This document shows, piece after piece, positions 7,887-63,101 of a DNA stretch of 64,000 bases. The notes below the pieces were generated by a model. It was given only the letters and a program-made list of their open reading frames with translations, searched no databases and had not been told where the DNA came from. This stretch comes from Chloranthus sessilifolius (lineage: Eukaryota; Streptophyta; Magnoliopsida; Chloranthales; Chloranthaceae). Position 1 is the first letter of the stretch; each line of letters begins with the position of its first letter. Location: NCBI GenBank assembly GCA_021018995.1, contig CM037589.1, positions 62,957,068-63,021,067 on the forward strand, in the 5' to 3' direction. A program made the translations under genes and the position numbers.

Positions 7887-8270
7887 TCTTTTCCCTGCCG
7901 TTTATTCTATTTTTAATCAAAGAAGGTGAAACAATAAATAAATAAAAATATGGAATTTTTTTTTTTTTTTTTAAGTTGAGTAAAAGGAAACAAATAATAT
8001 ATATATGAGTCCCGGAGACAAAAGGGAGTTTGCTTACCTGAAATGAGAGAAAGAAATGGAAGGGAGCTTAGTTCGAGAGCTGATGATTTTGGAGTTGGAG
8101 TTTGGGTTTCGAGAACCCTAATCTTCTGATACAGAAAATAAAATAAACACAAATGTAAAGTTGTGAAGGCGCGCGCGGTCTCCAGTGGTGGCGCGAAAAT
8201 GACCTGATCGCGTCCCAAACTTTTCTCGAAGAGTTTGGATTTTGCGTGTGACCCGTGTACAAGTGCCAGT
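7887..8270 (-). promoter_or_regulatory. HEN2: HEN2 5' leader with a possible leader intron
   Basis: On the minus strand, CATTTCAG followed by GTAAGC at about 8036 is a good splice donor. A possible acceptor (AAAAATAG) lies near 7905, just before the start codon, so the 5' UTR probably contains a short intron. It holds a long T run (about 7950-7970 on the plus strand). The start codon choice rests on the family N-terminus and on no upstream extension. No clear TATA box was identified. Confidence 0.35.
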
Positions 8271-13560: not shown

Positions 13561-14689
13561 TAGTCCGCCGTTGGGAGAAGTATTTTATATACTTCAAAAC
13601 ATACATACCACAGTCCCAACCGTTTCTTTGGAGTGAGAGATTGATACTGTTGAACACCAATACCTTTCACTGTTAATCGAAAGCAGACTTCAAATCGGCA
13701 GTGTAAAGAAGACGTGGAAGGTGATGCAATAGACATCCTTTATGTGCTTTGAACCTCCTTGAGTACTCTCGGTCTGCTGGGTCTATCAACTTAATTTCGT
13801 GATTTTCGTGATCAACTAATGAAATTATAGCCAATGCTCAGTGACTATATTTTTTACTATGCATCGGAAGAAAAATCTGCACAGAAAAGGAACCGAAATC
13901 TTAAATAATTAAAATTTTAAAAAGCCGTTAACATTAAATAAAGTAAAGTGTAGTATTAAAAAACATACCGTTCCACAATTGATCGCGTGAATTCCGCGTG
14001 TATGATTGGTAAGTAGGGGTTCAAGCGGCTTTGAATTGTGATGAACCTACCACTCGTCACAGTAGGCCTACCACTTACCGAAGTCGTTAAGTGCTGCCAG
14101 ACCTTCATTATCGACAAATTTTTAAAAAAATTTCTCGTGTGTCATAAATAAGGTTCTGAAAGAGGATAATACAATAAGTAAATAAATTAAAAGAAGTGAA
14201 TTGAGAGTCATGAATGAAAAGACAAATAAATGAAAAAAAAGAAATAATAAATAGTTGAAACCTTACCAAAGCGGACGCAGTAGCGAACCAGTTTTTTTTC
14301 GGAATTTGTCGAAAATATTGAATCGTTGATAACTCCAAGGACTTTCGAGTACGCGTCGATGACTTCATTGTCGAGCCACGAGCGTCCTTTAAGGAGCTTT
14401 AAAATAGCAACTGTGATGTCAACGCCCATAATTGTATTGACGATCACATTATCCTTTTTTTCGGCTGGTTCTAAAAATAGAGCATATATTTATCCTCTAT
14501 TGATTTTGGCTCATCCTCCTCCTCCTCCTCCACAACTACTCTTGGTCTTTTAATAATGGCTTTATTGGTCGAGATCTTTCTCTTCTTCCGAGCACGCAAG
14601 TTATATCCCTCGGCTTTACTCTTTGCAGTTGATAGTTTCACTAAAATTAATTTTAGTGATGTCGACTATGACTCACGAGAAGGCTGGGT

Positions 14690-15175
14690 AAGGGGAGCAC
14701 CCTCATCATCCACTTCAACCAAAGGTTGTTTAGCAGGAGGTTGAGGTGCTTCAGTAGTGGGTTGAGTGGCAGTTGGTTTAGCAGCAGAAGTTTTGGGGGT
14801 AGTGGTTTGAGGAGTAGGTTGAGGAGCAGTGGGTTTTGGGCCAGTAGGTTTAGGGGCAGAAATTTGGGGGGCAGTGGATTGATGAGTAGGTTGAGGAGCA
14901 GTGAGTTTTGGGCCAGCAGGTTTAGGGGCAGAAGCTTGGGGGGCAATGGATTGATGAGTAGGTTGAGGAGCAGTGGGTTTAAGAGTTGGTTGAGGAGCAA
15001 TAAGTTTATGAGTTGGTTGAGGAGCAGTTGGTTTAGGGTCAGAAGTTTTGGTGACTGTTGGTTGAATGATAGTGGTTTGAGGGGCAGAAGTTTCAGGAGC
15101 AAACGATTGAGAAGCTGTTGGATGAGTGGCAGTGGGAACAAAGGTTTCAAATAGAACAGAGGAGAGAATATCATC
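14690..15175 (-). repeat. Proline-rich coding repeats (PTAPQPT) in the Ulp1 gene
   Basis: In the minus-strand gene frame this segment encodes tandem variants of PKPTAPQPTHQSTAPQ. The DNA repeats are about 75 bp long and stay in frame. It forms a flexible linker between coiled coil and protease. A leucine-rich frame and an arginine/serine-rich frame over the same bases are shadows. Confidence 0.75.
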
Positions 15176-15254
15176 CTACATTATTGCAAAATATATTAAA
15201 ATTTGTCATTATATTTTACAAAAATAAAAATAATATTATTTGGGAATCAGGTTA

Positions 15255-15410
15255 GCGACCGCACTTTCGTCCGATAATGTAAGTAATCAGCCGACAACTT
15301 ACATTATCGGCCGATAATGTAAGTTATTGACCGATAACTTATATTATCGGGCGCTAATGTAAGTTATCGGTCGATAACTTATATTATCGGTCGATAAGCT
15401 AATTTGGCAT
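15255..15410. repeat. MULE array 3: about eight 20-bp units in alternating orientation
   Basis: Units such as GGCCGATAATGTAAGTTATC and GGTCGATAACTTATATTATC alternate as near reverse complements. The base period is 20 bp and the orientation period 40 bp. The array interrupts the Ulp1 gene between coiled coil and proline-rich repeats, presumably in an intron. Confidence 0.88.
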
Positions 15411-16924
15411 TAATCTTAAAAAATATATATATTTTTTTAAATTTAAAAAAAATTAGTTTAGTACCTTCGTCAAATGAGATCTGACCTCATCAAGATCCTT
15501 CCGTATTGCGTCATTTTGTTCAGTTAAATTTAGAACCTGATCTTGTAGTGACCCTACTTTATATTGTAATGACCTAACTTGCTCTTATAGGGTCTTCTTG
15601 TCTCTCTCTAACTGTTCAATAGTCAGTGCTTGCCCTTTAAGGATTATAAATGCACGTCGAAAGTCACTTTTTATCTCTTTAACAGCCATATGGAGTGTAT
15701 TATATTCTTTTTTAAGCTCCGTTACTTCTTTGGTTAGGTGGGGTTGCCTAACCAGCTGTTCTCTTGTTGGCTAGAGCCTAATCTTCGGTTTGCCCTTTGG
15801 TTCTATATGTTGACGTACAACGATCTCATACTCGTCGTTTTCGTCGCTGTCATCATCGTCATTATCATCATTTTGGCTCTTCGGCTCTTTTTTGAGGACG
15901 TGTCTCGTAACTTGAGACATCATCGTATTCACATATATTTTCTTGGGAGTGAGGCTCCTCGATCTTTTTCTGTTGCCTTTCCTTCTCTCTTTGTATAAAA
16001 AAGAGTCGAACCGATCGATACTGTGATTCGTATTTTACAGCTTCAAGCTCTAAGATAATTTTAGACTTAAGAAAATTTTCTCAATATAAATTAGGATTAC
16101 GGCTGAATTTTGGGCCTTCCCATTTCAATAGCCCACGGAAATGGATCTTTCAGCTGAGTAAGAGCGGTGGCGACTCCAGGAAAGTGCTCAAACGCACAAA
16201 TCTGTAGGGCGATAGTGTATTCGTAGATGTTGTAATGCCCATTTTCTAACTTTTTCGCCATTTCCCTTCTGACGTTCGCTTTCGATATGCAATCTACTAA
16301 ATTTTTGTAAACTAGTAGGCCCCACGAAAACTTATTGAACTCTTCAAGGTTATCTACTAATGTCAAGTACTGTGTGTTCACTTCCTGGTGTGTGTTCGGA
16401 AGTAAGAAAGAACATAAGAGAAACAACAATGATAGTTTCAAAAATTCATCGCTGGATAGGTCGGCACTATCAACTATTTCTTCAATACGAGATCTTTTAG
16501 CCAACTTCCTAAGAAAGAGTTTGTATCGAATGGTTTCTTTTTCTGGCATGGCTACATTCTCAGACTCAGGTTCTGTCAACATGTTCAGGCCTAAAATCAA
16601 TGCTATATCGGACTTTTGCAGCAGTACATTGATGTTCCTGACCTTGAAAATATTATCTTTAACCCAAAAGCTTAAAATAACGTTAACCAAGTCTCCAATG
16701 AATCTTAATTTCTCATTAATCGTAAATAGATGACCAAAAATTGAATCATCTAATATCTTATTTCTCTCTTCATTGCAGTGCAAGTAAAATTTTCTAGCAC
16801 TAATTTCAGTACATTTCCCGAAGGGCTTTAGAGACAGTCATTTTACAATCACTTTGTGAGAACTGTAAAATATATAAAAACAATTAATTAATAAAATAAG
16901 TGAGGTTGAAAATATTTTACTAAC

Positions 16925-17205
16925 TTATCGCTAAGTTATATTATCGCCCGACAACTTACATTATCAGACGATAATATACATGAGCGGCTGCTAAATTACA
17001 TTATCGGCCGCTAACTTACATTATCGTCCGATAATGTAAGTTGTCGGACAATAACTTACATTATTGGCCGCTAAGTTACAATAGCGGCCGATAACTTACA
17101 TTATCGATCGATAATGTAAGTTATCGGATAATAATATAACTTAGCGGTTGATAATGTAATTTAGCGGCTGCTAATGTACATTATCGGTAAGTTAGCGGGT
17201 TAAGT
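16925..17205. repeat. MULE array 4: about fourteen 20-bp units
   Basis: The longest array, consensus close to GGCCGATAACTTACATTATC, with units in both orientations and strict 20-bp register. It lies between the DUF1985 5' end and the right TIR, where the promoter of that gene would be. Confidence 0.9.
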
Positions 17206-17419
17206 GAGAAACATAACGGATGACTGCATGTGTTTAAATGTAAAAAAAGAAATTACCTAAAAATTTTATGTGGCTTTTTTTCCGCTTTGTCGCCGATATA
17301 CTGCCGCTCTCTCGATTTTTACAGAATAGTTAAAGTGAAAATAAAAGAGAGAATGAAAATATTAATTAAATAAGAAGGTCGGTGCAAATTTGAATATAAG
17401 AGGTCGTTGCTGACGTGTA

Positions 17420-35040: not shown

Positions 35041-38000
35041 TAATGATCCTCTCACTCGAGTCATAAAAATATCATTCCATGACTCTAGCAATCATTGGCT
35101 GCATGTCACATCATGTTGAGTTTTTAAGTCACCTAATGTGAAATGCAACCAATAGGAGCTTGAGTCATGGGCTTGTGTCCCATGACTCGAGGCATAAAAT
35201 CATTTCCCATATATATATATATATACATCCAGATCATTTGGACCCAATAGACAACTATGCTCCAGAAGATGGCGAGGAAGCGTGCGAAGAGGTCCAAGAC
35301 TTAAGAATTCAAGAGCATAAAGACGACGTGAACGCAGAAAATTACGACGGTAATTGAGTGATCTTTAGTTCACACATCTTAGATAGTTATTTGATTGAAG
35401 TTGATACAATAGGTATTTGCTTTACATTGATACAAATATATAATTTCTGCATGGGTTTTTTATGTTTAGACATATGTTGTTGGATTGGTATTTCATATAT
35501 CAATGGTTGATGGATCTTATATCCCATTTAGTAATATGATGGATTAGTTGACGGTTAATGAATCTTTATACATATGAACGGATATAATGAGTGTGCTCTT
35601 AGGTGAGTACCACATGCGCTAATATAAATAGTTAAATTAAAGTTGAAATTATTGTAAGTTCGACATGTGTGGTGCAATAATTGAAAGGAATTTTATGGCT
35701 CACAATTTTTAAGGACCCAGAATCATGTTAATTCAAGCAGGGCACGCAAGTTCTCTTAATACATTGGATGTGTGCGGGTCACCACATGGAATTCTATGTC
35801 CTCGTGTAGCAGAAAAATTTCAAGTTTGACATATATATAGCCTCACACCTTTTATTCTTAGTTGCTCTTAAAGAGAGAAAAACTGCAAGCACCACCACCA
35901 TTGTGCATGCGCATGCATGGGCACACTGGCAATCCGCACATACAAGTACTTGCGGGAGCTGAAGAGCCTTTTCGTATTTGACGGATGTTGGATCGCGCTT
36001 GACTAATTGACCAAAGTTGACTAGCTGGTGTCATGTGCATAGATGGAGTTAATCAATTGGCATAGTTGACTTGGGGACCGTTTATGTTAGTGCAACCACT
36101 AATAGGTCAACTGGTTTGTTGACCAAGTCTCAACTAGTTCGATCATGTGAACTAGTAATCTCAACTAGTTGGTCGATTTCGACCAATCATAGGCCATTGA
36201 TAGTGTAACGACCCTGATTTTTTTGCTAATGTTGAATTATTGACCTTTGATGATAATACGACCATTTTGACCAGTTTGACTTTGCTCCAACCTTTGACGT
36301 CTGTGGCATGACCGTAGGCCACTTATTGTAATTGGGTGTATACAATCGTCACACTAAATCCCAACTGAAACCATCTATATGAGAGTGAGCGTGTGCATGT
36401 TGCACATGACTCAAAACCAAAACCTAGCCAACTCCAAACCCAGATCTGAGACCCTACGTTGGGTCTGCTTCCAAAAAATAATAAAATAATAATAATGAAA
36501 AATATAAATATATATATACATATATTTATATATAGTTGGTGTATATTTAGTATTAAGTGGGGTGTGCGTAGTGTGTGGTGCTAGATGCACACAAATCTAC
36601 TGGTGTTAGTGGTTTATAAGAGGGACTTCTCTCTTTCTAAATAAAAAAAAAGGAGATTTGAATTTGGAATTGGGTACCAAAGCTGGCACCCGAATCCCAA
36701 GCTATGGCAACTCTCTAACTCTCTCTCTAGAATCCCAATAAAGTCGAAACCCAGCCTTCCAAAAAAAAATAAAAATTACTACAAGATCTCTTGCTTTTTA
36801 TCCACGCACAACAAAACGCCGAGGGTCCCCTTTTTTAGAAGTATAAGAGTTCTTTTGGAATATTTCTTAATTGGTTGTATGTTGACTTTCCTATTAAACC
36901 ACTTTCCTTCCAAGCTTTCTTATTTGACCCAACCTCTAATTCACACCCAACTCTCTCATTCTCACTTACCCAAACGCCTCTCTATTTAAGGTGACTTTCG
37001 CAAACGTCTCTCTCTCTATTTAAGGTGACTTTCTCCAACTTTTTTTAAAATCCAAACGAAGGAAGTCTTCTTCCTCTCTCAGATCTCATCCTCGCAAGCC
37101 CATCCAACTGTCTTTGTTGGCCCTTTAGTTCTCTTGCCAATAATAAATCTTGCTAGCTATGAACACCTCCATAACCGAGCAGCCACCATCTGTTACACAA
37201 TAGCTGCTCTCTCTCTCTCGTTCTTTCTACAACCTGAGCAGCCCAAGCAGCCACCAAATCCCATATACTTTTCAACCTCTCTTCCTCTCGGGTTTTCATC
37301 CTCATCGCAAACTTGTCTTTCTCTCTCTAAGATCTCTTGCAAGGTCTCTCTCTTTCTCTAACAACATCACGACAACACCATTGTTGTTATACTCTTCTTC
37401 TCGCGTCCAACCAAGCACCACATCGATCCATCGTCGAAGCCGCATCACCGGACACCACCACCAACAATTTCCCTTGTGATGTTAGGACCCGAGGGAGGGG
37501 GAATTTAATTATTCTTTTTTACTTCGACTCATTCGATTAATTTGTATGCCCGAACAATAAATTTTGCCTTAAACCCATCATTCCTTAGCTTCGACCCATT
37601 TATTTAATTAGCCATGCTTGAATGTGTAACGTCATTGATTGCTAATCTCCACTTTATAATTTGTTTAAATAATTAATTTCATGTACACTAGGACTTGCAA
37701 GTTATTTCCTATTTGTCTGGCGACTATACTCTTGGAAAAAAATGATCTAGCATGAAAATTGGAGGTTGATGCTGAAAATTCATTTCAGACCAGTTTGGGC
37801 TTTTCCCTCTAACTTCACGTGATTGTAGAAATTTTTTCTAGACTTCTAATGGATGTGCCGTCGACAAGGTGATGTAGAGGGCAATGTCCTCTATCAAAAC
37901 TATTCCAACATCTGAGAGTGAATTAGTCTCTAGTCACCTTGAAAATCGACCGCAAGATGCCTACTTTAAAATCTGTACAGTAAATTCCGGCATCTGATTT

Positions 38001-41000
38001 CTGTTAAGTGTTTTGTGAATTCACGTTTGACCTTTGGTCCGACACCCATATGAGTAGAATCACGAAAATTCCTATATGATTGCCCCTCCCAACTTTTTAT
38101 GATCTTCACATCTGACGGTAAGAGTTCTCTGGTTTTAACATGAATCATAAAAAAATAATTTGTGACTAGTTAGGCCCTAATTCGATCGGATTGTATCGTA
38201 ACTGTGGAATTATTTTGTACATAGGTAAGTCACATTTTTCGGTCACGAATGGTCAAACATGTTAGCAAGATTTAGTTTATTATTATTGTATTCTGCTTAT
38301 CCACATGATCATCAAACATAAAGTGTGTGTCATGAAATAAGAAAAAGACACGACACGAATTCACGATATGGATATATATAGACACGGATTTAAAGGTCAT
38401 TTAAGACATAGATAAAAATATACATGACACGAATTTACGACAAGGCAAATCAAGGATTATAATTATATGTACGCTAAAGACAAACAATCGTTCTGCATGT
38501 GTGATTTTCGATTTTAAATAGGATCCCATCATGTCATGTCAAATCACGGACCAAGCACGAGCCACCTCAATGAATAGAGGATACACCTAATCATGAATAT
38601 TGTCCATGGGCGACGATGGACGGGATCCCCATCGGTATAAATATTACTTTAGTTTTGACACCTAATATGTGCGAAAATTACCTTTAAGTTAAAATTTAAG
38701 TCATGTAAGAACTACAAGACATGTGTCACTGTGATTAGTATAATTCTCACGGATATGTTTCACGAAATATGAAAGCACTCTAATTTTGTAATAAATAAAT
38801 TATGTGTAGAATTTTAGATACATAGCCTTTAAAAATCTCTATCTCATAATCACGAATTTTGCTAGCTTCCCATGTCTTATGATATATTTATCTCTAAATT
38901 ATCGTCACATTAATTCGATAGATTTTGTGTATGCTGGTTAGTTAAATGTTTCAAGTGATGGAGGGTAATTAACTCTTCCTTACTTAGCACCGTGAAATTT
39001 TTTGCTTACCCCGATACTGTGTCATAGGTACAGGTGTAGACAAGGATCGTGAGTTGGAAGAGGATCCTGATTTCGTGCCTGAAGATGAGGAAAATCTTCC
39101 ACCAGAAGAATTCTATCCTTAGTGAGAATTCTTGATTAATACTTGATACGACTTAATAAATTTTCTTTAGAATTTTTATTTATTGCTTTTTCACGTATAT
39201 AGATGTAAGTACCACTATTTGTGTAATGTACGGTCGTCACTGGTGGTATTTTTGGATTAGTATTTTCAGTTATGGATGTTAAAATTATTGTTTCAGTTTA
39301 GTAAGTAATTCGATTAATGTTTTTATAATATTGTTTTAAAGAAAAAAAATTGGCTCGTGTTTTCTCAAATAAATTACCATCATATTAGGATTAAACCATC
39401 GCATGCCTATGACACAAATGTTAATGACACAAATTTTGTGTAGAAAATTTGGGTCGTTACAGTTGGTATCAAAGCAAACGCTTTAGGTTTTCATTGGGAC
39501 TTGGGTAGATTTGTTGAGTTGTCAGTACTGATTTTATAATTTTCCGTAAACATGCCATAATGCCACCTCATACGAGACCGATTGCAAACCTAATAAATGA
39601 CGGTGAGGTAGCGTCCGAATCCAACGTTGTTCCTATTGGTGATGGAGGAAGCAATGAGAGAATGCAACAATACATGGAAACTATCGCAAATGCCATGGCA
39701 CAGTAGACTGCGCTGCTAGCAGGTTGACAATAGCCTACAGGTTTTCAAGAGTTCAGAAAGATGAAACCTCCTAGTTTTTACGGTAAGGCTGATCCAGCAG
39801 CTGCTGAAGATTGGGTCAATCAGATTGAGAAAATTTTGGGTGTAATGAGTTGCACGGAAGATGAAAAGGTTAGATGGGCTGCATTTCTGTTGGAAGGGGA
39901 AGCCGACCCCTGGTGGAAGTCAATTCTGAGAACCAGGGATTAAACTCGAGCAAATGTTCCGTGGACATGGACAAAAATTTTAGAGAAGTTATAATGAAAA
40001 ATATTTTCCAGCATCCGTTCGAGAACAATGGGAGATAAATTTTATTGCTCGCGAGCAAGGAAAGATGACTGTGTTAGAGTATGAATCCGAGTTTTAAAAC
40101 TCTCGTGTTATGCTCCTCTTCACGTGGCTACTAAATTAATGAAGACCAAGAAATTCGAATGCAGTTTGAAATCGACAATCCAGGAGAGAATCTCATTGTT
40201 TAGTTTGAGAACATATGTCAATGTAATGGAGAAAACCTTAATTGCCGAGCGCGACCTCGAGAAGATGTATAAAAGGAGAGAGTTGCATAACAAAGAACGA
40301 AACTCTAGTCGAGCGTAACTTGTTAGCGTCGACCGTGGAAGTAACAGATCGAGATTTTTCACACCTGAACATTCTCGCCAAGTGCAGCCTACTGTTTCAA
40401 AACAGGCATCTTCAATACCCTCTAGGCCTGTACACACTTTTCAGACAGCAGGATCTTTAGTACCTATGACACAAAAGCCTTTGAGTACCACTTTTCAGTA
40501 TACTTATGTATCATGCCCTATTTGTAATAGAAGGCACAAGCCAGATGAGTGTCGAAAAGCAAATGGCATGTGCTACAGGTGTGGAGAAAAAAGGCACATG
40601 CTTAGAGATTGCCCACAAAAAGAGCCTGAGAAGTCGATACCGACCACTTCACAATGGACATCCCGCCATACTGTTCAGGGTAGCGCCTATGTAGTTTCTG
40701 CATGTGACATTCAAGCTACAAATGACGTCATCCAAGGTATATATTAAATTAATGGTTTGTTCAATATATTTATTTTTATTTACAGCAGTTGATGAATGTT
40801 CTTGAGAATAATTTTGAATCATATTATTGCATGAATACTACAAGTTTGTATATAAGTAATTAATTTAAATACATGAACCCTAGGTACCTTACACATGTAC
40901 CAGAGTAAATATATTTGTCAGCATAAGGCACGTGTCTTGATAGACCCTGACTCTATGCACTCATTTGTGACCCCTCGATTCGCTTCTGAATTGAGTATTA

Positions 41001-44000
41001 CACCAGAATCCTTGGACTTTATTTTGTCCATTTAAGTTCCTACTGGGAAATCTATGGTCACAGACACCATATATCGATCGGTCATCATTTCAATTGAGGA
41101 TCATGAAACAATGATTGACCTGATTATATTGGCAATGTAAGGCTTCGATGTAATCCTCGATATGGATTGGTTGTCAGCCTATCATGCGAGTATAGATTGC
41201 CTCAGAAAGGTGGTTACTTTTCATCCCTCAAAGGGTGCACCTTTCCGATTCTATGGCATTAGGTCAAGCGTTGCACCAGCTATCTCAGTCATTCGAGCTG
41301 ATTGCTTATTGAGGAAAGGATGTCAAGGGTACCTCGCACTTATACAAGATCAACGTGAAGAGAAAGTCAACATTACAAACATTCCTATTGCATGTGAGTT
41401 TCCTAATGTGTTTCCCAAGGATTTGCTAGGATTACCACCAGATAGTAAAATTGAGTTCTCAATTGATTTGGCTTCAGGCACGGAACCAATATCTAAAGCT
41501 CCATACCGCATGGCACCGGCTGAATTGAAAGAGCTTAAAGACTACTTGCAAGAACTCTTGGATAAGGGGTTCATCAGACTGAGTGTTTCTCCATGGGGAG
41601 CCCCTGTCCTATTTGTCAAAAAGAAAGACAGTTCTATGAGGCTATGCATAAATTATCGTCAGTTGAATAAGTTGACGATCAAGAACCGCTATCCGCTCCC
41701 TCGCATTGATGATCTCTTTGATCAATTCCAAGGGTCAAAGTTTTCTCAAAAATAGATTTGAGGTCAAGCTACCACTAATTGAAGGTTAAGGCCAAAGATG
41801 TTTCGAAAATCGCTTTTCGAACTAGATATGGTCACTATGAATTTCTGGTAATGCCTTTTGGTTTGACAAACGCCCCAACATCATTCATGGACTTGATGAA
41901 CCGAGTGTTCAAACCATGCCTCGACCAATTTGTGGTTGTCTTCGTAGATGACATTCTCATTTATTCAAAAACAAGGGAAGATCATGAGCAATATTTGCGC
42001 ATCACACTTCATACACTTCATGATCGTCAGCTTTATGCAAAGCTAAGTGTGATTTTTGGCTCGAACAAGTCAGTTTCCTAGGGCACGTCATTTCTGAGGC
42101 AGGCGTAACTGTTGATTTTGCTAAAATTGAAGCCATCATAAAGTGGGAACTACCAAAGACAATAACCGAAGTATGCGGTTTTCTCGGCCTAGCTGGTTAC
42201 TATAAAAGATTCGTTGAAGGTTTTTCTAAACTTGCAGCACCACTTACTCAGGTCACAAGGAAATACACAATTTGAATGGAATGATTCATGTCAAGAGAGC
42301 TTCCAAGAGCTGTAGAAGAAATTAATTTCCGCACTAGTTCTTGCTATACCATCAGGCAGTTGAGGTTTTGTGGTATTCAGTGATGCATCACACAGTGATT
42401 TGGGTTGTGTACTGAATCAACATAAAAAGGTCATCCTTTATAACTCTCGTCAACTCAAGGACCACGAAAAGAACTATCCGACTCATGACTTGGAGCTTGT
42501 AGTCGTCATTTTTGCCTTAAAGATTTGGAGGCACTATCTCTACGGAGAGACATGTGAAATTCTCACCGATCATAAAAGTTTGAAATACCTCTTTACTCAG
42601 AAAGATTTGAATATGGATGGAGTTTCTCAAGGACTATGATTGTTCCATCCAGTACCACCCTGGGAAGGCTAATGTGGTGGCAGACGCACTAAGTTGAAAA
42701 TCGTCAACTCAGCTATCCAATGTCATCACAAGGATCCACCGACGACGATTATTTGAAGATATCTCTCTTTATGATATAAAATTTAATATTAAGGATTCAG
42801 GGGCCTTAATGGCTAATATTACTATTCGACCGACGATTAACATCCGAGAACTTCAGATGATTGATGAGGATCTTATGGCGATCAGACATGATGTAATCAA
42901 TGGTAATAGACCTGAATTTTCTATCAGAGAGGATGGTTCTTTGCTGTTCAGAGGCCGACTTTGTGTGCAAGCCAATACACAGCTTCGACGCCTGATTCTT
43001 GATGAAGCACACAAGTCAAAATATACTATTCACCTTGGATGTACTAAAATGTATCAGGGCTTAAAGAAAATCATTTAGTGGAGAGGATTGAAGAAAGAAA
43101 TAGCATAATATATATCAAAATGCCTGGTGTACCAACAGGTGAAAGTTGGCCATCGAAATCCCTCTGGTTTGTTACAACCCTTACCTACACCTGAATGGAA
43201 ATGGGAGAATATCTCCATGGATTTCATCCTTGGATTACCGAGAACAATGAAAGGGTACAATGCAATTTGGGTGGTCATTGACCGATTAGCCAAGTTTGCC
43301 CATTTTCTACCTTATAGTACGAAGTACACCGCTAGCCATCTTGTAGAGTTATATGTCAGAGAAATCGTCAGACTACACGGTATTCCAGTTAGCATTGTCT
43401 CGGACAAAGATCCATTGTACACATCAAAGTTTTGAGAAAACGATTCCAAGAAGGCATGGGTTTGAGACTGGACTTTATCTCTGCTTTTCACCCTCGGGCA
43501 GATGACCAGACAGAAAAGGTGAATCAAGTTATCGAGGACATGCTCCGAGTGTGCATGTTGGACTTTCAAGGATCATGGGACAAACATTTACCATTGATTG
43601 AATTTGCTTACAATAATAGTTATCAGGTAAGCATCAAAATGGCCCCATTTGAGGCACTTTATGGTCGAGAATGTAAATCTCCGCTTTATTGGGAAGAGAC
43701 TAGAGAAAGGTTTTTGTTAGGCCAGAGCTTATTGAAAGCACAATTGAGGCAATAAGGGTGATTCGTGAGAGATTAAAGATAACACAAAGCCGACAAAAGA
43801 GCTATGCAGACTTAAAAAGAACAAATATTGAGTTTCAGGTAATTTGGTGAATTATTCATTTTATTTTTTCCTATTAATGTATGCCTCATTATGACAATAC
43901 ACTCCTTGCAGAAAGGGGATAATGTCTTCATCAAAATCTCGCCTACCAAAGGTGTGATGCGATTTGCAAAATGTGGGAAGCTAAGTTCACGTTATGTCGG

Positions 44001-47000
44001 GCCTTTTGAGATTTTGGGCCGAGTCGGCGAAGTCACTTATCGGATTGCCTTACCTCCACAACTATCGAGCATACACAATGTTTTCCACGTGTCTATGTTG
44101 AGAAGGTATATAAAAGACCTGACTCATATTTTGGACTATCAGTGACGGGGATGCCACATACATGGAAATCGGATTTGGACCACATCAGTTCTACCGGCGT
44201 CAGAAGAAACATAGAGGAAGCCTAAGTACCGTAGCTTCAAGGAAGAAAAAGAGGCTAAAACCAGCACACTGTTAACATTGAAACAGCTCGCTGTTCAACA
44301 ACACACTGTTAACATTTGAACAACACACTGTTCAACAACACACTATTAACATTGTAACAGCGCGCTATTGGCGATGATGGGATATCTATTTTATGCAGAA
44401 AACTGCCTTTTTAGTTTTATTTCTTTTAGGACTCTTTTTATTTCGAATTAATTATTGGTGGCCTATATAAAGAGGCTTGTAAACACTTTTTATTTGGTTA
44501 TTGAATATTTTGAATGCTTTATGCTTGAATATTCTTCTTCCCGAGAAGGGTTTGGTGTGAGACCAAGGGAGTGATTCCTATCTATTATCTTTTGATCTTT
44601 TATTATCTTTGATATATATATTTCCTCTGTCATTCACTTATAATCCATTACCCATATTGAATCCCTAATCCAAAACTCAAACCCTATTTCCATCAAAACC
44701 CTAGTTTTTATCCGAGCCATCAAGCCTATCCATTCCTACAACTATAGTTCGAAGCCGTGAATCTACATCGGATCGAAGATGAACGCCCAAGCCTGGAAAA
44801 GTTAGAGTCCTATCTCTAGGTCCGATCTCACCTCAAATCTAACGGGACTTGCACATCGGATTGGACGCTCTATTCGGATCTCGCATGATTTCTCTATCGG
44901 AATTCTACGAACCCGAAGGTATCGTGATAGTTTTGAGATTAATCTTGAATTAATTTTATTTAATTTCGGCAAATCACATCAAAATCATATTCACGCATTT
45001 TAGGGTTCCCGTCTCGTGTCAGTTTTGGTATCAGAGCCCTAGGTTTCTAGGTTAGGGCATCTTTACTTGTCATATTTATGTTATTGCATTGTTTTTTCTT
45101 TTTGAGTCCATATTGCATTCCATATTAGAACCCTGATAGACCTTTGTGATCACCATAGCTTCGAATGAGGTTCTCGATACTCTTAGAGCTATGCGAGAAG
45201 AATTGGGTGCGATTAATACGCGTCTAAATACCATAGAGCAGGTCCAAACATCCCTAGGAGTTAGTAATGATAGATTGCGTGATTGAATCAACCAATTGGA
45301 AGCGATTGGTGAACTTGAGGATCAACACCAAGGGCGTAATGGTCACCAAGATATTCGGAATCAGAATCGTACGAACCCTCGTAGAGATGATTATGATCCC
45401 GAAGTTCAACTCTTTAAGAATGTCCGAGTTGAGATTCCGATTTTCGATGGAAGAATGGACCCTACAGTCTTTCTCGATTGGCTTTCCGACATGGACCAAC
45501 ACTTTGATTGGTATGACATGAAAGACAACCGTTGTGTCAGACTCGCTAAGTTGAAGTTGGTTGGTCAAGCTCGATTTTTCTGGCTCAATGTCGAGCGCAT
45601 TAGGGTGAATGCGGGTTGTCCTCCCATTACCCGTTGGGACGACATGAAGGAACGACTTACTGAGAAGTATGCTCCTTTATCATACCACTGCCTCCTCGAC
45701 CAGTGGTAAAATTTACGCCAAGGTGGTGTCCCCGTTACCGATTACATTGTCAAATTCGAAGAGTTCATGATGAGGGCAAAGGTATCGGAAGACTCTGAAA
45801 TCACTCTCTTTAGATTCTGCACCGGATTGCGACTTGATTTGCAAAAAGAGTTAATTTCTCACCTCGTGGAAACTCTTGAAAGATGTTATGCCGCTGCGCA
45901 AGATCTTAAATGATATTTAAAAACCTCGGTGGTAAAGAGAACTGAACCACAATATAGTGGTCAACGCTCCGGTGAGGGACGATTTAATCCTCCTCCCAAG
46001 CCTACACAACCTGTCCCTACCAATACGAGGTTTGAAAAGGGAAAAGGTGTAGCCGAAGAATCCTCAAGGGGAAGCTCTTTAGTAAAGTGTTATAAATTTA
46101 TGGGATGGGACACTTTGCCGCCCAATGCCCTACAAAAGAACCCCTAAGGACTCTCTTCGTTGAGGGAGAGGAGGATGATGGTGAGTTAGTGGTTGAAGAA
46201 GTATTTGAGTCGGACAACACACCCAGTGATGAGGGTGATGCTATTGGCCATGCTTTAGTTGTGAGGTGTGCCCTTGCACAACCTCAATAGGATGAGAACG
46301 ATGACTGGCGAAGGGAGAACATCTTCCACACCTTTGCCAAATTTGGTGAAAAGAGTTATAAGGTCATCGTGGACAGCGGTAGTTGCACCAATGTAGTGTC
46401 AACTCATGTCGTATGCCGCTTAGGGCTTACACCTGAAGCCCACCCGAGACCTTATAAGGTCACATGGGTCGACTCTTCATCCATTCTCGTGTCGAAAAGG
46501 TTTCGTGTACCGATTCAGTTAGATTCTTATTCGAACACCTTATAGTGTGATGTGGTGCCGATAGATGTTGGCCATATCATTTTGGAAAGGTCGTGGCTTT
46601 ACGACAAGGACGTGACCCTTTTTGATTGATCAAACATATGCACGCTCATGCATAAGGGCAAGAAGATTACTCTCCACCCTTTGCCTCCCAAAACACCATC
46701 GACCAACAAAATCGAAAAGAAGGGCAAGTCTTCTAAATCCATTAATATTGTGAGCCCTTCTGAATTTGAGAAAACATCGTTAGATGAGAGTGTGGTGTAT
46801 GTAGTCGTCACCATTGAGAGTGCTCCCGAGTCGGTGAGCTAGTGTCCCAAGGAGGTTGAGCCGATCCTGAAAGAGTTTACGGATGTCTTCCCTGAAGACT
46901 TACCAAACGAACTCCCTCCCCTACGTGATATCTAACACGCAATAGACTTGGTTCCCGGATCCACCTTACCGAACCTACCCCACTATAGGTTGAATCCGGT

Positions 47001-49639
47001 TGAGCACACCGAGTTAACTCGCCAAGTCAATGAGCTCCTTCAGAAGAGGTTCATCCAAGAGAGTCTGAGCCCGTGTGCCGTACCTGCCCTACTCACTCCT
47101 AAGAAAGATGGTACGTGACGCATGTGTGTGGATAACCGTACAATCAATAAGATTGTGATTAAGTATCGGTTTCCCATACCAAGGCTCGATGACATGCTCG
47201 ATATGATGGTTGGTGCCACTATCTTTTCAAAGATAGACCTTAAGAGTGGCTACCATCAAGTCCGCATCCGCCCCGGTGATGAGTGGAAAACCGCCTTTAA
47301 GACCACGAATGGTCTTTATGAGTGGATGGTCATGCCATTTGGGCTTTCTAACTCTCCGAGTACTTTCACAAGACTCATGACCCAAGTGTTGAGGCCGTTT
47401 CGAGGTAAATTCCTTGTGTATTTCAATGACATCTTTATTTATAGTCATGACAAGGATCATCACTTGAACCACCTTAGATTGGTCTGTGAAACCCTCAAGG
47501 GTGAGAAGTTGTTTGCAAATCTCAAGAAGTGCACCTTCATGCAACGTTCCGTTATCTTCTTGGGATTCATTATCTCAGTTGTGGAATGGTCGCAGACGCC
47601 GAAAAGGTTAAAGCCATTGTGGAGTGGCCCGAACCTAAGAACATACACGATGTCCGCAGCTTCCATGGCTTGGCTACTTTCTATCGTCGCTTCATCAGAA
47701 GCTTTAGCACCAACATGGCCCCAATTACAGACTGCATGAAAAAGGGGGACTTTAAATGGAGCAAAGCCGCGACGAAAGCCTTTGCCGAAATTAAACAAAG
47801 GATGAGTAGTGCACCTGTCATGCGCTTGCCGGACTTTTCCAAAGTCTTCGACATTGCATGCGATGCATTGGGTGTAGGCATAGAAGGAGTGCTTAGCCAG
47901 TCACCCAGTGGCCTATTTTAGTGAAAAACTTAATGAGGCCAAGCAAAAATACTCCACCTATGACAAGGAGTTCTATGCGGTCGTCGGGATTTCTATTTTA
48001 TGCGGAAAACTGTCTTTTTAGTTTTATTTCTTTTAGGACTCTTTTTATTTCGAATTAATTATTGGTGGCCTATATAAAGAGGCTTGTAAACACTTTTTAT
48101 TTAGTTATTGAATATTTTGAATGTTTTATACTTGAATATTCTTCTTCCCGAGATGGGTTTGGTGTGAGACCAAGGGAGTGATTCCCATCTATTCTCTTTT
48201 GATCTTTTATTATCTTTGATATATATATTTCCTCTGTCTTTCTCTTATAATCCATTACCCATATTGAATCCCTAATCCAAAACCTAAACCCTATTTCCAT
48301 CAAAACCGTCGTTTTCATCCGAGCCATCAAGCCTATCCAATCCTACAACTCTAGTTCGAACCCGTGAATCTACATCGGATTGAAGACGAACGCCCAAGCC
48401 TGAAAAAGCTAGAGTCCTATCTCTAGGTCCGAACTCACCTCAAATCTAACGGGACTTGAGCATCGGATTGGACACTCTATTCGGATCTCGCGTGATTTAC
48501 CTATCGAAATTCTATGAACCCGAAGGAATCGTGATAGTTTTGAGATTAATCTTGAATTAATTATATTTTATTTCGGCAAATCACATCAAAATCATATTCA
48601 CGTATTTTAGGTTTCCCATCCCGCGTCAATCAGCCTATCGATCTCCACGAGGATATGACCGTAGCTGAGAAGCCGATGCAAATTCTTGACCGAAAAGAGC
48701 AAATTTTGCGTACCAAACGGATCATGCTTGTACTTGTGAGGCGGCAGAATCATTCATCTGATGAGGCTACCTGAGAGTGTGAGGCAAAGATTCGCGATGA
48801 ATATCTGCACCTCTTTGAATAAGGTACGTAAATTTCGAGGACGAAATTCTTAAAAGGAGGGGAGAATGTAGATTTTTTAGCTAACGTTGAATCGTTGACC
48901 TTTGATGATAATACGGCGATTTTGACCGATTTGAGACGTCTGTGACGTGACCGTAGGCCATTTATTGTGATTGGGCGCACACAGTCGTCACACTAAATCT
49001 CAATTGAAACTATCTATATGGGAGTGAGTGTGTGCATGTTACACATGACTCAAAACCCAAAGCCAAGCCAACTCCAAACCCAAATCCGAGACTCTACGTT
49101 GGGTCTGCTTCCAAAAAAAATAAAATAATAATAATAAATAATAAAAATGAACAATATTAATATATATATATATACATATATTTATAAATAGTTAGTATAT
49201 ATTTAGTATTAAGTGGGGTGTGCGTAGTGTGTGGTGCTAGATGCACACACGTCTACTGTTGTTAGTGGTTTATAAGAGACTTCTCTCCTTTTAAATAAAA
49301 AAAAGGGAGATTTGAATTTGGATTCGGGTACCAAAGCTGGCACCCGAATCCCAAGCTATGGCAACTCTCTAACTCTCTCTCTAGAATCCCAATAAAGTCC
49401 AAACCCAACCTTAAATATATATATATATATATATATATATTTACTACTAGATCTCTTGCTTTTTATCCACGCACAGCAAAACGCCTAGAGCCCCCTTTTT
49501 TAGAAGTATAAGAGTCCTTTTGGACTATTTCTTAATTGGTTATATGTTGACTTTCCTATTAAACCACTTTCCTTCCAAGCTTCCTTATTTGACCCAACAT
49601 CTAATTCACGCCTAACTCCCATTCTCACTTACCCAAATG

Positions 49640-49684
<45 letters not shown>

Positions 49685-52600
49685 TTAAGGTGACTTTCCC
49701 AAACGTCTCTCTCTATAAGTAAGGTGACTTTCTTCAACTTTTTTTAAAATCCAAACAAAGGAAGTCTTCTTCCTCTCTCTCAGATCTCATCCTCACAAGC
49801 CCATCCAACTGTCTATGTTGGCCCTTTAGTTCTCTCACCAATAATAAATCTTGCTAGCTATGAACGCCTCCATAATTGAGCAGCCACCATCTGTTACACA
49901 ATAACTGCTCTCTCTCTCTCTCGTTCTTTCTACAACCCGACCAGCCCAAGCAGCCACCGAATCCCATATCCTTTTCAACCTCTCTCTTCCTCTCGGGTTT
50001 TCATCCTCATCACAAACTTGTCTTTCTCTCTCTAAGATCTCTTGTAAGGTCTCTCTCTTTCTCTAACAACATCACGGCAACACCATTGTTGTTATACTCT
50101 TCTTCTCACGTTCAACCTAGCACCAAACCATTCCACCGTCAAAGCCGCATCGCCAGACACCACCACCAACAATTTCCCTTGCGACGCTAGGACCCGTGGT
50201 GGGGGGAATTTAATTATTCTTTTTTACTTCGACTCATTCGATTTATTGGTATGCTCGAATAATAAATTGTGCCTTAAACCCATCATTCCTTAGCTTCATC
50301 CCATTTATTTAAGTAATCATGTTTGGATGTGTAAAGTCATTGATTGCTAATCTCCACTTCATAATTTGTTTAAATAATTAATTTCATGTATACTAGGACA
50401 TGTAAGTTAGTTCCCATTTGTGTGATGACTATACTCTTGAAAAAAAATTGATCTAGCATGAAAATTGGAGGTAGATGCTGAAACTTCATTTAAGAGCAGT
50501 TTGAGTTTTTCCCTAACTTCACATGACCGTAGAAATTTTTATAGATCTCCAATGGATGTGCCGTCAAAAAGGTGATGTAGAGGGCAATGTCCTCTACCAA
50601 AACTATTCAACATCCGAGAGTGAATCAGTCTTCAGTCACCTTGAAAATCGACCCCAAGATGCCTACTTTAAAATCTGCACAGTAAATTCCGGCATCTGAT
50701 TTATGTCTAGTGTTCTGCAAATTCACGTTTGACCCTTGATTCAACACCCATATGAGTAGAATCACGAAAATTCCTGTATGATCGCCCCTCCCAACTTTTT
50801 ATGATCTTCACATCTGATGGTAAGAATTCTCTGGTTTAACATGAATCATAAAAAAAGAATTTGTGACTAGTTAGGCCCTAATTCGATTGGATTCCATCGT
50901 AACTGTGGAATTATTTTGTACATGGGTAAGTCGCATTTTGTGGTCACAAATGGTCAAACATGTTAGCAAGATTTAGTTATGCTTATTGTATTTTGTTTAT
51001 CCACATGATCATCAAACATAAAGTGTGCGTCATGAAATAAGAAAAAGACACGACACGAATTCACGACATAGATATAAATAGACACGAATTTAAGGTCATT
51101 TAAGACATGGATAAAAATACACATGACACGAATTTACGACAAGGCAAGCCAAGGATTATAATTATATGTACGCTAAAGACAAACAATCATTCTGCATGTG
51201 TGATTTTCGATTTTAAATAGGATCTCATCATGTCATGTCAAGTCACGGGCCAAGCAAGAGCCACCTCGATGAGTAGGGGCTACGACTAATTATGAATATT
51301 GTCCATGGGCGACGATGGACGGGATCCCCATCGGTATAAATATTACTTTAGTTTTGGTACCTAATATGTGCGAAAATTACTTTAAGTTAGTATTTAAGTC
51401 ATGCAAGAACTACAAGACGTGTCACTATGATTAGTTTAATTCTCACGGATATGTTTCACCAAATATGAAAGCACTCTAATTTTGTAATAAATAAATTATG
51501 TGTAGAATTTTAGACACATAGCCTTTGAAAAGCTCTATCTCATAATCACGAATTTTGCTAGCTTCTCATGTCTTATGATATAACTATCTCTAAATTATCA
51601 TCACATTAATTCGATAGATTTTGTGCATGCTGGTTAATTAAATGTTTCAAGTCATGGAGGGAAATTAACTCCTCCCTACAAAGCACCGTGAAATTTTTTG
51701 CTTACCCCGACACTATGTGTCACATGTACAGGCGTATAGTGTCACACGTACAGGTGTAGACAAGGATTGTAAGTTGGAAGAGGATCTTGATTTCGTGTCT
51801 GACAACGAGGAAGATCTTCCACCTTGAAGAAATCTATCCTTAGTGAGAATTCTTGATTAAAACTTGATACGACTTAATAAATTTTCTTTAAAGTAATTAT
51901 TTATTGTTTTTCACGTATACGGATGTAAGTACCACTGTTTGTGTGACGTACGACAGTCACCGGTGGTATTTTTGGATTAGTATTTCAATTATGGATGTTA
52001 AAATTATTGTTTCAGTTTAGTAAGTAATTCGATTAATGTTTTTATAATTTTGTTTTAAAGAAAAAAAAAATGGCCCATGCTTTCTCAAATAAATTACCAT
52101 CATATTAAGGTTAAACAATCGCATGCCTATGATATGAATGTTAACGACACAGATTTTTGTGTAGAAAATTCGGGTCATTACAGATAGGTCAATCGAACCA
52201 TGCTGATCAGATTCATCCTAGCAATTGAAAATTTGACCATTTGGATGGAATAGTGAATCCATTTTAGAGGCCATATGAGCTGTTGGATCAGACCATTGAC
52301 AAGAGCTGAATGATATAGGCCATCCAACATATGATTGTTTGAATAACTGTCGTGGTGATTGCTCGAAAAGTCCATAACAAGTCTATAAAATGAGAGCGTA
52401 GGTCTCCAATCAAAAACACAAAAGTACCAAAACTTAAGTGCTATATTCTGTTTTTAACTATATTACTGGGGCGTTATTAGGCATCTATGATAGTGTTTGG
52501 GTTGCATTAAAAAATGTACAATTCAAAAACAGTAATAATGATCTGGGCTCCATTGTATCCTGAAAACATGTTCACCACACCCCTTTTTCCGCTCACGATT

Positions 52601-57332: not shown

Positions 57333-60300
57333 ATGAAGATGTTATCGTGGAATGTGAGAGGCATAAGTGATCGTTTGAAGCGGGTGGGGGTTAAGCAAGT
57401 GATTGCGGCATTTAAACCGGTCATTGTTACTCTACAAGAAACAAAGTGGGGCAGTTGTGATAGAAGGAAGGTCGAGTCGGTCCTGGGGGGCGGAAGTTAG
57501 GATTGGGTTGGTGTTGATTCCATCGGAGCTTCCGGAGGGATTCTGGTGGCTTGGTCTTCGGTTCTCTTCGATAAATTGGACGAGGAATTGGGATGCTTTT
57601 CTGCCTCCGTGGTGCTTCGGGATAAGGTGTCTGGGAAGCAGTGGTGTTTTGCGGGCATTTATGGCCCAGCGTCTGACCGGGAGAGGGGAGATTTTTGGTT
57701 TGAGCTGCACGCTCTCGCTGCTTGGTGGGATATTCCCCTCTGCCTGGGTGGAGATTTCAATGCTATCCGGTGGGATTTCAAAAAGCAGGGTGGCCAACCT
57801 AACTTCGGAGTCATGCGGGATTTCAATTCTTTCATTTTGGACTAGGGGTTATTAGATGTCCCCCTAATTGGGGATCGGTTCACATGGTCTAGTCGTCAGG
57901 ACACTCCTCTTAGCAAGCTGGACAAATTCCTTTGCTTTATCGATTGGCTTGATGTTTTCCTCGGGGCCCGGTTGGAAGCTTTTGCTTGTGCCATTTTTTA
58001 TCATCGCCCTCTCGCTCTGACGTTCAAGTCTCGCAGAAAGGGGTCTTCACCTTTTCGATTTGAAAACATGTGGTTGTTGGATGAGTCCTTTCGGGTGACG
58101 GTCCGGGGTTGGTGGTCGGAGCTGGTGACGACTGGGATTGCTGCTTACCGATTCCTCTCTAAACTTCGCCGGCTAAAAGAGAGAATTAAAATCTGGAACA
58201 AGGGTGAGTATGGTCGGGTTCACGTTAGAAAGGAGGCCTTGCTCTCGAAATTGAAGATTTTAGATAATTTGGAGACTAGAAACCTTTCGGCGGATGAGAG
58301 GGAGGTTAGATTGCAAACGAAGGTGGAGTTCAGTAGTACCTGTAGGGCCGAAGAAGTGTTATGGATGCAGAAAGCGAAGGCTCATTGGTTTAAAGAGGGG
58401 GACGCTAACATTATGTATTTCCATGCGGTTGCTAATGCGCATAACAAATCGAAGTATTTGGGAAGTATTGTCGTGGATGGGGTATCATATTCCGGGCACG
58501 ATCAGGTTTGGGATAATATTGTTGATTTTTACAAACGGTTGTATACGGATGAGGGACATCCGAGGCTGAAGTTGGATGAGCTCCATTTTAAATCCCTTTC
58601 GGAGGAGATTAGTAGGGGGCTGGAGAGCAGGTTTACTGAAGACGAAGTGTGGACAACGATCAGGTTTGGAGGTAGAAACAAAGCGTCGGGGCCGAACGGG
58701 TTCACCATGGAGTTTTACCGTGCTTTTTGGGAGAATATTAAGGCGGACCTGATGGAAGTTTTCAACGAGTTTCACTCGACTGGCTTTATTGGGAGATCCT
58801 TAAATTCCACCTTTATTACCCTCATTCCCAAGACCCATGGGGCTGAGAATATTTCCGATTATCGTCCGATCAGTCTTATCAATTGTCTCTACAAGATCTT
58901 ATCGAGGGTGCTGGTTAACAGGCTCAAGTGGGTAATGAATACTATTATTTCCGGCAATCAGGGGGCTTTCATCCGTGGTAGACAGCTAACGGATCTTATG
59001 GCGGTGGCTAATGAGACAATTCACTCAGCCCATGTGCAGTGTCGGCCGACCGTGATTTGGAAGGTGGATATGGAGAAAGCCTATGATCGGGTCAGCTGAG
59101 AGAATCTCGACTACATGTTAGGAAGGTTGGGATTCAGTGATACTTAGAGGAAATGGATGCGCGGATGTTATTCCTCTCCGTGGTTTTTGATTATGATAAA
59201 TGGCACACCCGCCGGGTATTTTAAGAGTTCCAAAGGCATTAGGCAGGAAGACCCTTTGTCCTCGTTTCTTTTTAATATGGTAGGGGAGGCTTTATTAGGG
59301 CTGATCGAGCGCACAAGGGATTTAAATAGAATTACTGGCATTCGGGTGGGAGAACAAGGCAGATTCATCACGCACCTGCAATATACAGACGATACGATTT
59401 TATTTGGGAAGGCCGATGTGGCAGAACTCGGCGTTATGGTGGATGTGCTCTCGGTTTATGAGGCGGTGTCGAGGTAGCGGGTTAACCACCTCAAGTCTAC
59501 TGTTTCTGGCATTGGTGTGGAGGATGCCCTACTGACCGACCTTGTTGGTTCGGTAGGTTGTGGAATTGAGGAGTTGCCTATTAGGTACCTCGGTTTGCCA
59601 CTTGGGCTAAGACAGCCCACGATCCGTGATTGGCTCCTAGTTGTACAGAGGTTTGAGCAGCGGCTGTCGTCTTGGAAAGGTAAATTGCTGAGTAGTGAAG
59701 GGGAGGCTGATTTTGGTTAAAGCGGTGCTTTCCTCGATCCCCATCTTCTTTATGTCCATGTTTAAGTGCCCCGGCAAAATTCTCGATCGGCTGGAACATA
59801 TTCAACGGTCATTTCTTTGGGAGGGGTCGGGTATGAACAGGCGGTATCATCTTGTTAACTGGGACATGTGTCAGCTGCCTATCGCCGGTGGTGGGTTGAG
59901 GATTCAGAGCTTAAAAAAGAACTTATTTGGCTATGCTTGGAAAGTGGCTATGGAGAGTGGGTAGGGTGGAGGAGAGGGGAAGTCTCTGGTGGTTGGTGGT
60001 TAGTGTTGTCCGAAAAATATGGCCTATCTTGGGGGAGCTGGGGGATATGTATTTCGTCCCACAGGAGTACCTCGGCGTGGTGGAGAGGTATTTCCCGTCA
60101 GTGGGAGCTTCTTGCCAAAGGGGTGCGATATAGCTGGGGGAGTGAAACCCGTATATGGTTCTGGGAGGATGTTTGGTTGGATGTGGGTTCGCTTAAGGCT
60201 ACTTACATGGACATCTTCGATCTTTCTTTGAATCCGGGTGGTAGAATTGATGAGTTTGTCTCGATGGCCAGTGGGAGGAAGGTTTGGGAAGTCGCCACTG

Positions 60301-61130: not shown

Positions 61131-61990
61131 TTGAACCGACCATCTTTGCCTATTTTTTTTTTCCTTTTCTCTTGTTGTTGCTAGCGTCACCAGAAATTTG
61201 TTGATGTTAGTGATGACGTCATGCTGACATCAGCTGTCGCCTGAACCCTACCGGAATCCATCGAAATTGCTGGGAACTTGCTCGATTTTTTGTTATGAGC
61301 AACTTTCCCTTCTATATCATCTTCATCCGAGCACTAGAAGAGGGAGAACCCACTTCGTCTTCAACCTCAATTCACCTGCGTCACATAAACTCCATAGAAC
61401 CAGGTTCCTCCCAGATCTGATGCGAGGCATCGAAATCTTCCCAGAACCTCATTTCGATGCCTCTTCTGAAGTGATGCAGTATTTTTTAGAGGTTACAGAG
61501 CTGCCGAGATGTGAAGAACTGCCGGAAACTGAACTCCACGTTGTCAGAGGTGTTATTTCTCGCCGGAAACCTTCGAATCAATGTCAGATTGATCCTCTGT
61601 AACTGCTGATTGCTGGTAACAATCTTTTAAATGTTTTTTTGTGATATTTTCCATGGTCAACTGCCGTATAGACTGTTGCAACTCAGATTGGTGCTTTTCG
61701 ATAAAATTGTTGGTTCTCCATGGTTATGAACATGGTAGCTACGCTGATTGCAGCCATTAGAGCTTATTTTGTGAGGTGTGTGATGCTGTACAGCTGTGAA
61801 GAGAAGAGTATTCTTCTCCGGTAAAGTTAATTGATTTGTATTGTTGGTGCATTGTAAGCATCTTTTAGTTGTCAGAATTGTTGCCTGAAAATCAGCCATT
61901 AGACATGTTTGATTTAATGTCTGAATCAACCCATGGTGCTGATTTGGTTGGGACACAAATTATACTTGTTGAAAAGCCTGTGTAGGCATT
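61131..61990 (+). other. Copia leader region
   Basis: Untranslated stretch between primer site and gag. A 111-codon frame at 61267-61602 shows no recognised domain and is probably chance or a leader ORF. Confidence 0.4.
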
Positions 61991-63101
61991 TGGAACCTCG
62001 GTATCTTTTGATCAAGGATGAGAATAAATCCGAGATCGTTGGCAGGGGAGATGTCTCTCATAACTTACAAATTACTACCAAGAAGCTGAATGGAGCCAAT
62101 TATCTCTCGTGGTCACGGTCTGCTACTATGTACTTAGGGATGAAGAAAAAATTGGGTTACATTTACGAGACTGTCCAGAAACCCAAAGAAGATGACCCTA
62201 AGTATATTAATTGGGAAAGTGACAATCTAACTGTCATGACATGGCTGTTGCACTCCATACAACCAGACATTAGTGATTCCTTTATGTATGCCAGTGATGC
62301 TAAACAATTATGGGAGGCTGTGAGGGATGCGTTCTCGCAGAAACAAAACCTCGCAAAAATGTTTCAGGTTAGTGACAAAATTAACACTATGAAGCAAGGG
62401 GATAAGACTATTGGAGAGTATTACACTCAAATGAGAAGTTTGTGGAATGAATTAGCCCAATCAAGAAGAAGAATTATGCAGCTCGTGTGCCAGCAAGGTT
62501 TGTAAAAATACTGAGAGAAGGAGAGTGTTTGACTTCCTAAAAGGGGTTAGACCCGAATATGAGAATGTTAAATCTAACATTCTCGACAGAGAGGAGTGTC
62601 CTCCACTGGGTACTGTGTATGCCCTCCTTCAGCATGAGGAGAGCAGGCAACAGTTTATGCAGATTTCCGGTGGTGATATATCTGAGAGATCTGCCCTACC
62701 ATCCTTTACTTCTTTTGGTCGTGGGGGAGGGAAGTTTGGTGGTAGAGGTGGTGGGGGCCTCTCCCATGAAGAAAGAGAAATTGTTGTGTTCTCATTGTGG
62801 TAAGAAGGGTCATACCAGAGAAAGATGTTGGGACTTGTATGGGAAACCTAAATTTCTTCCGGGTCGTGCATTTCAGTCTTCCACTGAGGACGCTTCTAGT
62901 CCAGTTGTTAGTCAGAGCACCCCTCCTCCTTCCGTTCCACCTCTAGCTGATTTCCAGAGCTTACAGAGAGAGCTTCACGATCTTCAGGGCCGCCTTCAGT
63001 GCATGGCGGTGACACAGGGACATGCATCTTCCTCCCACATAACTGAGTCAGGTACCTATGGGTCTGCCCATGTGACCTCAACCTCTCAGTCCCCATGAAT
63101 C
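61991..63101 (+). pseudogene. Copia gag with CCHC zinc knuckle (one stop, frameshifts)
   Basis: UBN2-type gag: KLNGANYLSWSRSATMYLG, GYIYETVQKP, WLLHSIQPDISDSFMY, AKQLWEAVRDAFSQK and IGEYYTQMRSLWNEL. A stop and frame change follow near 62504, then FLKGVRPEYENVKSNIL. A frameshift near 62760 leads to the zinc knuckle CSHCGKKGHTRERCWDLYG (62792-62848), then a Ser/Pro-rich spacer. The start ATG is not certain because the 61933 frame begins on a TTG or GTG-type codon. Confidence 0.85.

Follow-up and report, generated by a model that had tools for sequence, protein, structure and literature searches.

Can a plant retrotransposon keep introns, when a retroelement is expected to lose an intron whenever its spliced RNA is copied? 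The question is raised by a decayed Ty3/gypsy element of the chromovirus type, which lies at positions 36204-52183 of a 64,000-nucleotide (nt) stretch of Chloranthus sessilifolius DNA (G000:C6:62957068-63021067, the whole of which is termed the window) and is interrupted by two blocks that a first-pass annotation had read as GT-AG introns. Searches of the source genome (2.17 Gb, 32 contigs) suggested that both blocks are probably real spliceosomal introns long carried by related chromovirus-type families, of which the unspliced RNA would serve as genome and Gag message and the spliced RNA would rarely be copied. Both introns keep the same position and phase across two families, and intron 1 does so in a third as well; their bodies drift with kept splice sites, the flanking coding sequence is constrained, and exact absences occur.

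Block 1 (40737-40883) has 147 nt in phase 1, with the boundaries CCAAG/GTATAT...CCCTAG/GTACC, and block 2 (43839-43911) has 73 nt in phase 0, with the boundaries TTTCAG/GTAATT...CTTGCAG/AAAGG, the slashes marking the block ends. Re-reading of the sequence reproduced the coordinates, lengths and GT/AG ends given by the first-pass annotation. The T fraction is 0.43 and 0.45 in the two blocks, compared to 0.21-0.33 in their 200-base flanks. As 147 is 49 times three, block 1 inserts stops without shifting the frame, and block 2 shifts it, both as had been annotated; unspliced read-through in the window meets a stop after three codons at either block. Both also sit at breaks in conserved motifs, as proposed earlier: position 1 of the SH3_Tf2-1 profile is the second residue past block 2, and the RVP_2 match begins shortly downstream of block 1.

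Close copies of the window element, termed family 1, were sampled as the best 20 of 39 other genomic matches, which are 84-88% identical across the search stretch. Intron 2 is present in all 20, with a length of 69-75 nt; the donor is GT in 17 copies (GC in the other three), and AG is the acceptor in 17 (AA in the other three). Intron 1 is present in all seven distinct copies that cover its site (L016 and L019 overlap); it has 147-152 nt in six of them, among which L024 ends in TG instead of AG, and 130 nt with a diverged 3' end in the seventh. In addition, the family-1 flank pattern of intron 1 matched 19 places, two of them overlapping, and some of these hold clearly different intron bodies. 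The first-pass annotation had allowed that relatives might lack the blocks or that the blocks might be private insertions; instead, relatives carry them at the same sites, as does a second family with different intron sequence. Alternatively, the blocks could be small insertions that have decayed, or mutations that broke the frame of a dead element, with GT-AG ends by chance, and the window copy indeed has many further stops and frameshifts beyond the two blocks. Yet all 20 copies carry them at the same sites, as do other families, in which the splice sites persist while the body drifts. Because the same places recur in the fetched copies and, diverged, in another family, a chance origin is extremely improbable.

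How far the two sites extend beyond family 1 was examined with an SH3 profile search, in which 150 places were scored of 34406 candidates and 33 regions were fetched, a non-random choice made partly by printed open-frame length. In 12 of the 33 regions, which form family 2, an intron of 74-78 nt occupies the place and phase of intron 2 with a different sequence; intron 2 is absent by measurement in 18, and three regions (L031, L037 and L058) fell outside the script measurement. At the intron 1 site, 19 regions were fetched, comprising eight of family 2, five of family 3 and six of distant families. Intron 1 is present in all six readable regions of family 2, with a body differing from that of family 1, and in all three readable regions of family 3, which is without intron 2, one of them with the donor GA. 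In distant families it was found in none of the five readable regions, several of which read through AG/GT at that place, and the readable distant families have neither intron. In the family tree, from which nine of 54 rows were dropped for missing columns and which was rooted at the midpoint, the intron 2 state changes twice when the topology is free, and the tree uniting all intron-2 rows has a higher likelihood and a p value of 0.695 in the approximately unbiased test (p-AU). As the grouped tree is not rejected and the root is a midpoint root, a late single gain of intron 2 and an early gain followed by loss in family 3 fit alike.

Both introns behave like spliceosomal introns in that the body drifts whereas the GT-AG ends are conserved. 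Pairwise comparison of 12 family-2 copies gives differences of 0.088, 0.050 and 0.244 at the first, second and third codon positions and of 0.315 in intron 2, which begins with GT in 12 of 12 and ends with AG in 11 of 12. When the printed lists were counted by hand, GT was the donor at 96 of 100 intron 2 matches (GC at three, GA at one) and at 97 of 100 intron 1 matches (AT at three); the intron 1 of L102 measures 151 nt with an intact GT. Read-through of intron 1 meets a stop after 5-30 codons in seven of seven other copies measured (after three in the window), and that of intron 2 in family 2 meets one after 1-12 codons in ten of 11 copies, L068 having none within 25 codons. As a separate observation, four intron 1 matches at G000:C4:98.07-98.63 Mb have identical printed letters within 0.6 Mb, perhaps owing to local duplication.

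Relatives without an intron provide a further line of evidence. In family 2, exact-flank patterns that tolerated 0-30 leftover bases matched 248 places with intron 2 and 25 without it, and 343 places with intron 1 and six without it. Every one of the 31 absences is exact, with no match leaving 1-30 bases behind, as expected of spliceosomal introns missing from relatives or retrocopies. The 25 and six absences share one copy and thus make 30 loss copies in total, all of which were fetched. Among the 25 copies without intron 2, 24 keep intron 1, and among the six without intron 1, five keep intron 2 (68-77 nt). We considered that the intron-2-less copies form a natively intron-less family, which was rejected for the 20 copies compared, as their flanks resemble those of copies with the intron, drawn from several subfamilies (best reference matches of 86.7-97.8% upstream and 87.7-97.5% downstream); the remaining five of the 25 show 80-95% identity to the single reference compared. 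Moreover, when 20 copies with a loss and 12 that keep the intron, a non-random sample, were placed in a tree, the best tree shows six state changes, at least four of them on well-supported branches.

The two introns differ in how often they are lost: six of 349 places for intron 1 versus 25 of 273 for intron 2 (Fisher p 2.4e-5), so that loss of intron 1 is about five times rarer, which fits stronger selection on intron 1 or weaker splicing of it. The donor and acceptor of family-2 intron 2 both read TTTCAGGT, an 8-base repeat found at both ends in most copies read. With real introns, the exact intron 2 losses might accordingly stem from deletion or a reverse transcriptase jump between the two TTTCAGGT repeats, not from spliced RNA. 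This origin would account for the more frequent loss of intron 2, and family 1, which is without the repeat, shows no loss, though at only ten places. However, the ends of intron 1 share only AGGT, yet six exact losses occurred there, none with 1-30 leftover bases, and one copy lost both introns. On balance, we regard repeat-mediated loss as the less likely origin of the exact intron 2 losses; since its ends share so little, intron 1 provides the better evidence for the copying of spliced RNA.

Several points weigh against real, spliced introns whose spliced RNA is occasionally copied. A double loss occurred in only one of the 30 loss copies, the family-2 intron 2 losses could arise without splicing via the repeat, and the exact-flank patterns are blind to deletions extending into the exons. 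In family 1, the search for exact losses found none against ten kept places at intron 2 and none against 19 at intron 1, and the splice sites of this old family decay about as fast as the remainder, as is expected of old dead copies. Moreover, splicing is deduced here from genomic DNA, and the proposed scheme adds two inferred steps, the translation of Gag only and the packaging of RNA that has not been spliced.

We propose that the packaged genome would be the full-length unspliced RNA. With intron 1 still in place, translation would halt soon after the zinc knuckle, so that this RNA would yield Gag alone. Splicing out intron 1 would give Gag-Pol, and splicing out intron 2 would equip the integrase with its SH3 domain and chromodomain. 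These reactions would be incomplete, and unspliced RNA would be strongly favoured, or selected, as the template of reverse transcription; RNA spliced at one intron, rarely at both, would occasionally be copied to yield an intron-less insertion. The first-pass annotation had suggested either that full-length genomic RNA escapes splicing or that splicing sets Gag against Pol. The first option would hold in a narrower form: exact intron-less copies exist as a minority, so the reverse-transcribed RNA would be mostly, not always, unspliced. The second option fits the position of block 1 after the Gag zinc knuckle, with the Gag-only step itself belonging to the proposed mechanism.

Alternatively, the introns could be real and spliced and yet be passengers without a regulatory role, with unspliced RNA exported otherwise and the Gag/Pol balance set otherwise. 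The free drift of the intron bodies would suit passengers, as would family 3, which manages without intron 2, and the distant families, which manage without both. On the other hand, intron 1 sits where Gag meets protease, and in eight of eight copies measured, the window included, read-through of it ends translation behind Gag; it is also kept at 343 places versus six although exact losses occur; a passenger role is thus unlikely. A more detailed scenario can be offered tentatively, as possible rather than probable. The chromovirus lineage would have gained intron 1 before intron 2, both at a pre-existing AG/GT of the coding sequence, to form a switch in which the unspliced RNA serves as genome and Gag message and each intron gates a further portion of the protein, that of intron 2 being the chromatin-reading tail of the integrase. 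The genome would then record the leak of spliced RNA, at ~2% (intron 1) and 9% (intron 2) of matched places.

In the window, the following features of the element were located, all on the plus strand.

36204..39461, plus strand: 5' long terminal repeat (LTR) of the outer element (direct repeats; GATAG at 36199-36203 just upstream; 91.8% identity to the 3' LTR)
39464..39475, plus strand: primer binding site (sequence read), by its motif probably of the initiator-tRNA-Met type
40571..40618, plus strand: Gag zinc knuckle (zf-CCHC; Pfam match barely above the cut-off)
40737..40883, plus strand: probable intron 1, 147 nt, phase 1, in the zinc knuckle/protease interval (ends, copies, other families, exact absences)
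40910..41230, plus strand: protease (RVP_2) in three pieces split by stops (Pfam; first piece slightly below the cut-off)
41818..42036, plus strand: part of the reverse transcriptase (RVT_1; Pfam)
42367..42612, plus strand: RNase H (RT_RNaseH; Pfam)
42974..43429, plus strand: integrase zinc-binding and core parts, broken (Pfam matches below the curated cut-offs)
43839..43911, plus strand: probable intron 2, 73 nt, phase 0, in the integrase core/SH3 interval (ends, copies, other families, exact absences)
43915..44109, plus strand: integrase C-terminal SH3 domain (SH3_Tf2-1; Pfam E 4.6e-26)
44143..48628, plus strand: nested decayed LTR element, separate from the outer element (target duplication ATCAG; 643-base direct repeat)
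48664..48771, plus strand: chromodomain remnant of the outer element (similarity to copies; without a Pfam match of its own)
48867..52183, plus strand: 3' LTR of the outer element (direct repeats; GATAG at 52184-52188 just downstream)

The extent of the outer element was set by direct repeats and inspection of its ends, which are flanked by the target duplication GATAG. Its LTRs of 3258 and 3317 bases share 91.8% identity, with a Kimura two-parameter distance of 0.087, and enclose Pfam matches in the order zinc knuckle, protease, reverse transcriptase, RNase H, integrase and integrase SH3 domain. This structure suggests a chromovirus of the Tekay/Del type, on which the clade name rests: the domain order from zinc knuckle to integrase is that of Tekay/Del, with the integrase core and zinc-binding matches below the cut-off, and the long LTRs and the 5-base target duplication agree with it. 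The chromodomain of that type was found after the SH3 domain in family-1 copies, above the Pfam Chromo cut-off in L017, at it in L021 and below it in L026; Pfam gave no match for the window's own remnant.

The nested element sits between the integrase and the chromodomain of the outer element. It contains a reverse transcriptase at 47119-47739, and its 643-base direct repeat is 93.8% identical. A third intron at 44143-48628 was considered for this interval and rejected, because the target duplication ATCAG flanks the segment and both flanks of the site align in 17 of 20 fetched copies.

Intron-bearing LTR retrotransposons are known as a kind. For Ogre, a Ty3/gypsy element of the Tat lineage, the relevant passage of a survey describes genomic copies that keep an intron, which is spliced from part of the transcripts and opens Pol; the same survey gives a single frame for most groups and names Bianca and Ogre with two separated frames (PMC6317226). 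The present element resembles Ogre, as described there, in being a plant gypsy element with a retained intron whose partial splicing would open Pol. However, the Ogre/Tat intron lies between protease and reverse transcriptase, whereas intron 1 precedes the protease. Tat elements moreover have a second RNase H and lack a chromodomain, whereas the copies analysed here have a chromodomain. For RNase H, a single piece was looked for in the window and was located. Introns also survive retrotransposition in Penelope-like elements, which are similar as intron-keeping retroelements and belong to an unrelated, non-LTR group.

In the Ty1/copia elements BARE1 and EVADE, splicing controls Gag versus Pol, with spliced RNA giving Gag only and unspliced RNA giving Gag-Pol (PMC3735527, PMC12786077). 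The control of Gag/Pol by splicing would be alike here, with the logic reversed. DNA copies of spliced BARE RNA could not be amplified, in the account given there (PMC3735527), whereas exact intron-less copies exist here. The same source describes CRR, in which splicing removes rt, and Bagy2, in which it makes env RNA (PMC3735527); these are likewise Ty3/gypsy elements with spliced RNA, but that passage describes no pair of small pol introns in them. Bongo of beet, of the Tekay/Del type, has LTRs of ~2.6-3 kb, 5-base target duplications and a chromodomain (PMC3605345). It shares the long LTRs, the 5-base target duplication and the chromodomain with the present element, whereas introns go unmentioned in the part of the source that describes it.

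The literature searched gave no description of introns in elements of the Tekay type, a weak absence since most subscription journals lay outside the search; an LTR retrotransposon of chromovirus type that holds two introns and has left exact losses is apparently unreported. The introns were kept at two fixed sites through family divergence, and the failures are seemingly preserved as exact intron-less copies. Such losses would provide a natural gauge of the strictness with which unspliced RNA is picked for reverse transcription, which to our knowledge is otherwise studied mostly in retroviruses. The findings suggest that splice control of Gag/Pol in plant gypsy elements extends beyond Ogre, and they call for caution in annotation pipelines, to which intact elements may appear broken at introns.

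Apart from the genomic copies, L001 (1-310), the only locus from the viral contig collection, begins with a short gypsy integrase piece fused to genes that by eye resemble phage genes; it is probably a chimaeric contig and was not used as evidence. Elsewhere in the window, a further gypsy integrase piece at 203-1399 (plus strand) has zinc-binding, core and SH3_Tf2-1 matches over 398 open residues. A DEAD-box helicase piece at 6669-7901 (minus strand), MTR4-group-like by eye, is probably an exon of a host gene. The region 14650-17210 contains a DUF1985/plant mobile domain match at 16097-16837 (minus strand) between repeat arrays with 20- and 40-base spacing. Finally, a reverse transcriptase piece resembling those of long interspersed nuclear elements (LINE) lies in a G-rich stretch at 57846-59099 (plus strand), and downstream of this LINE-like piece is a copia-type gag at 61918-62505 (plus strand).

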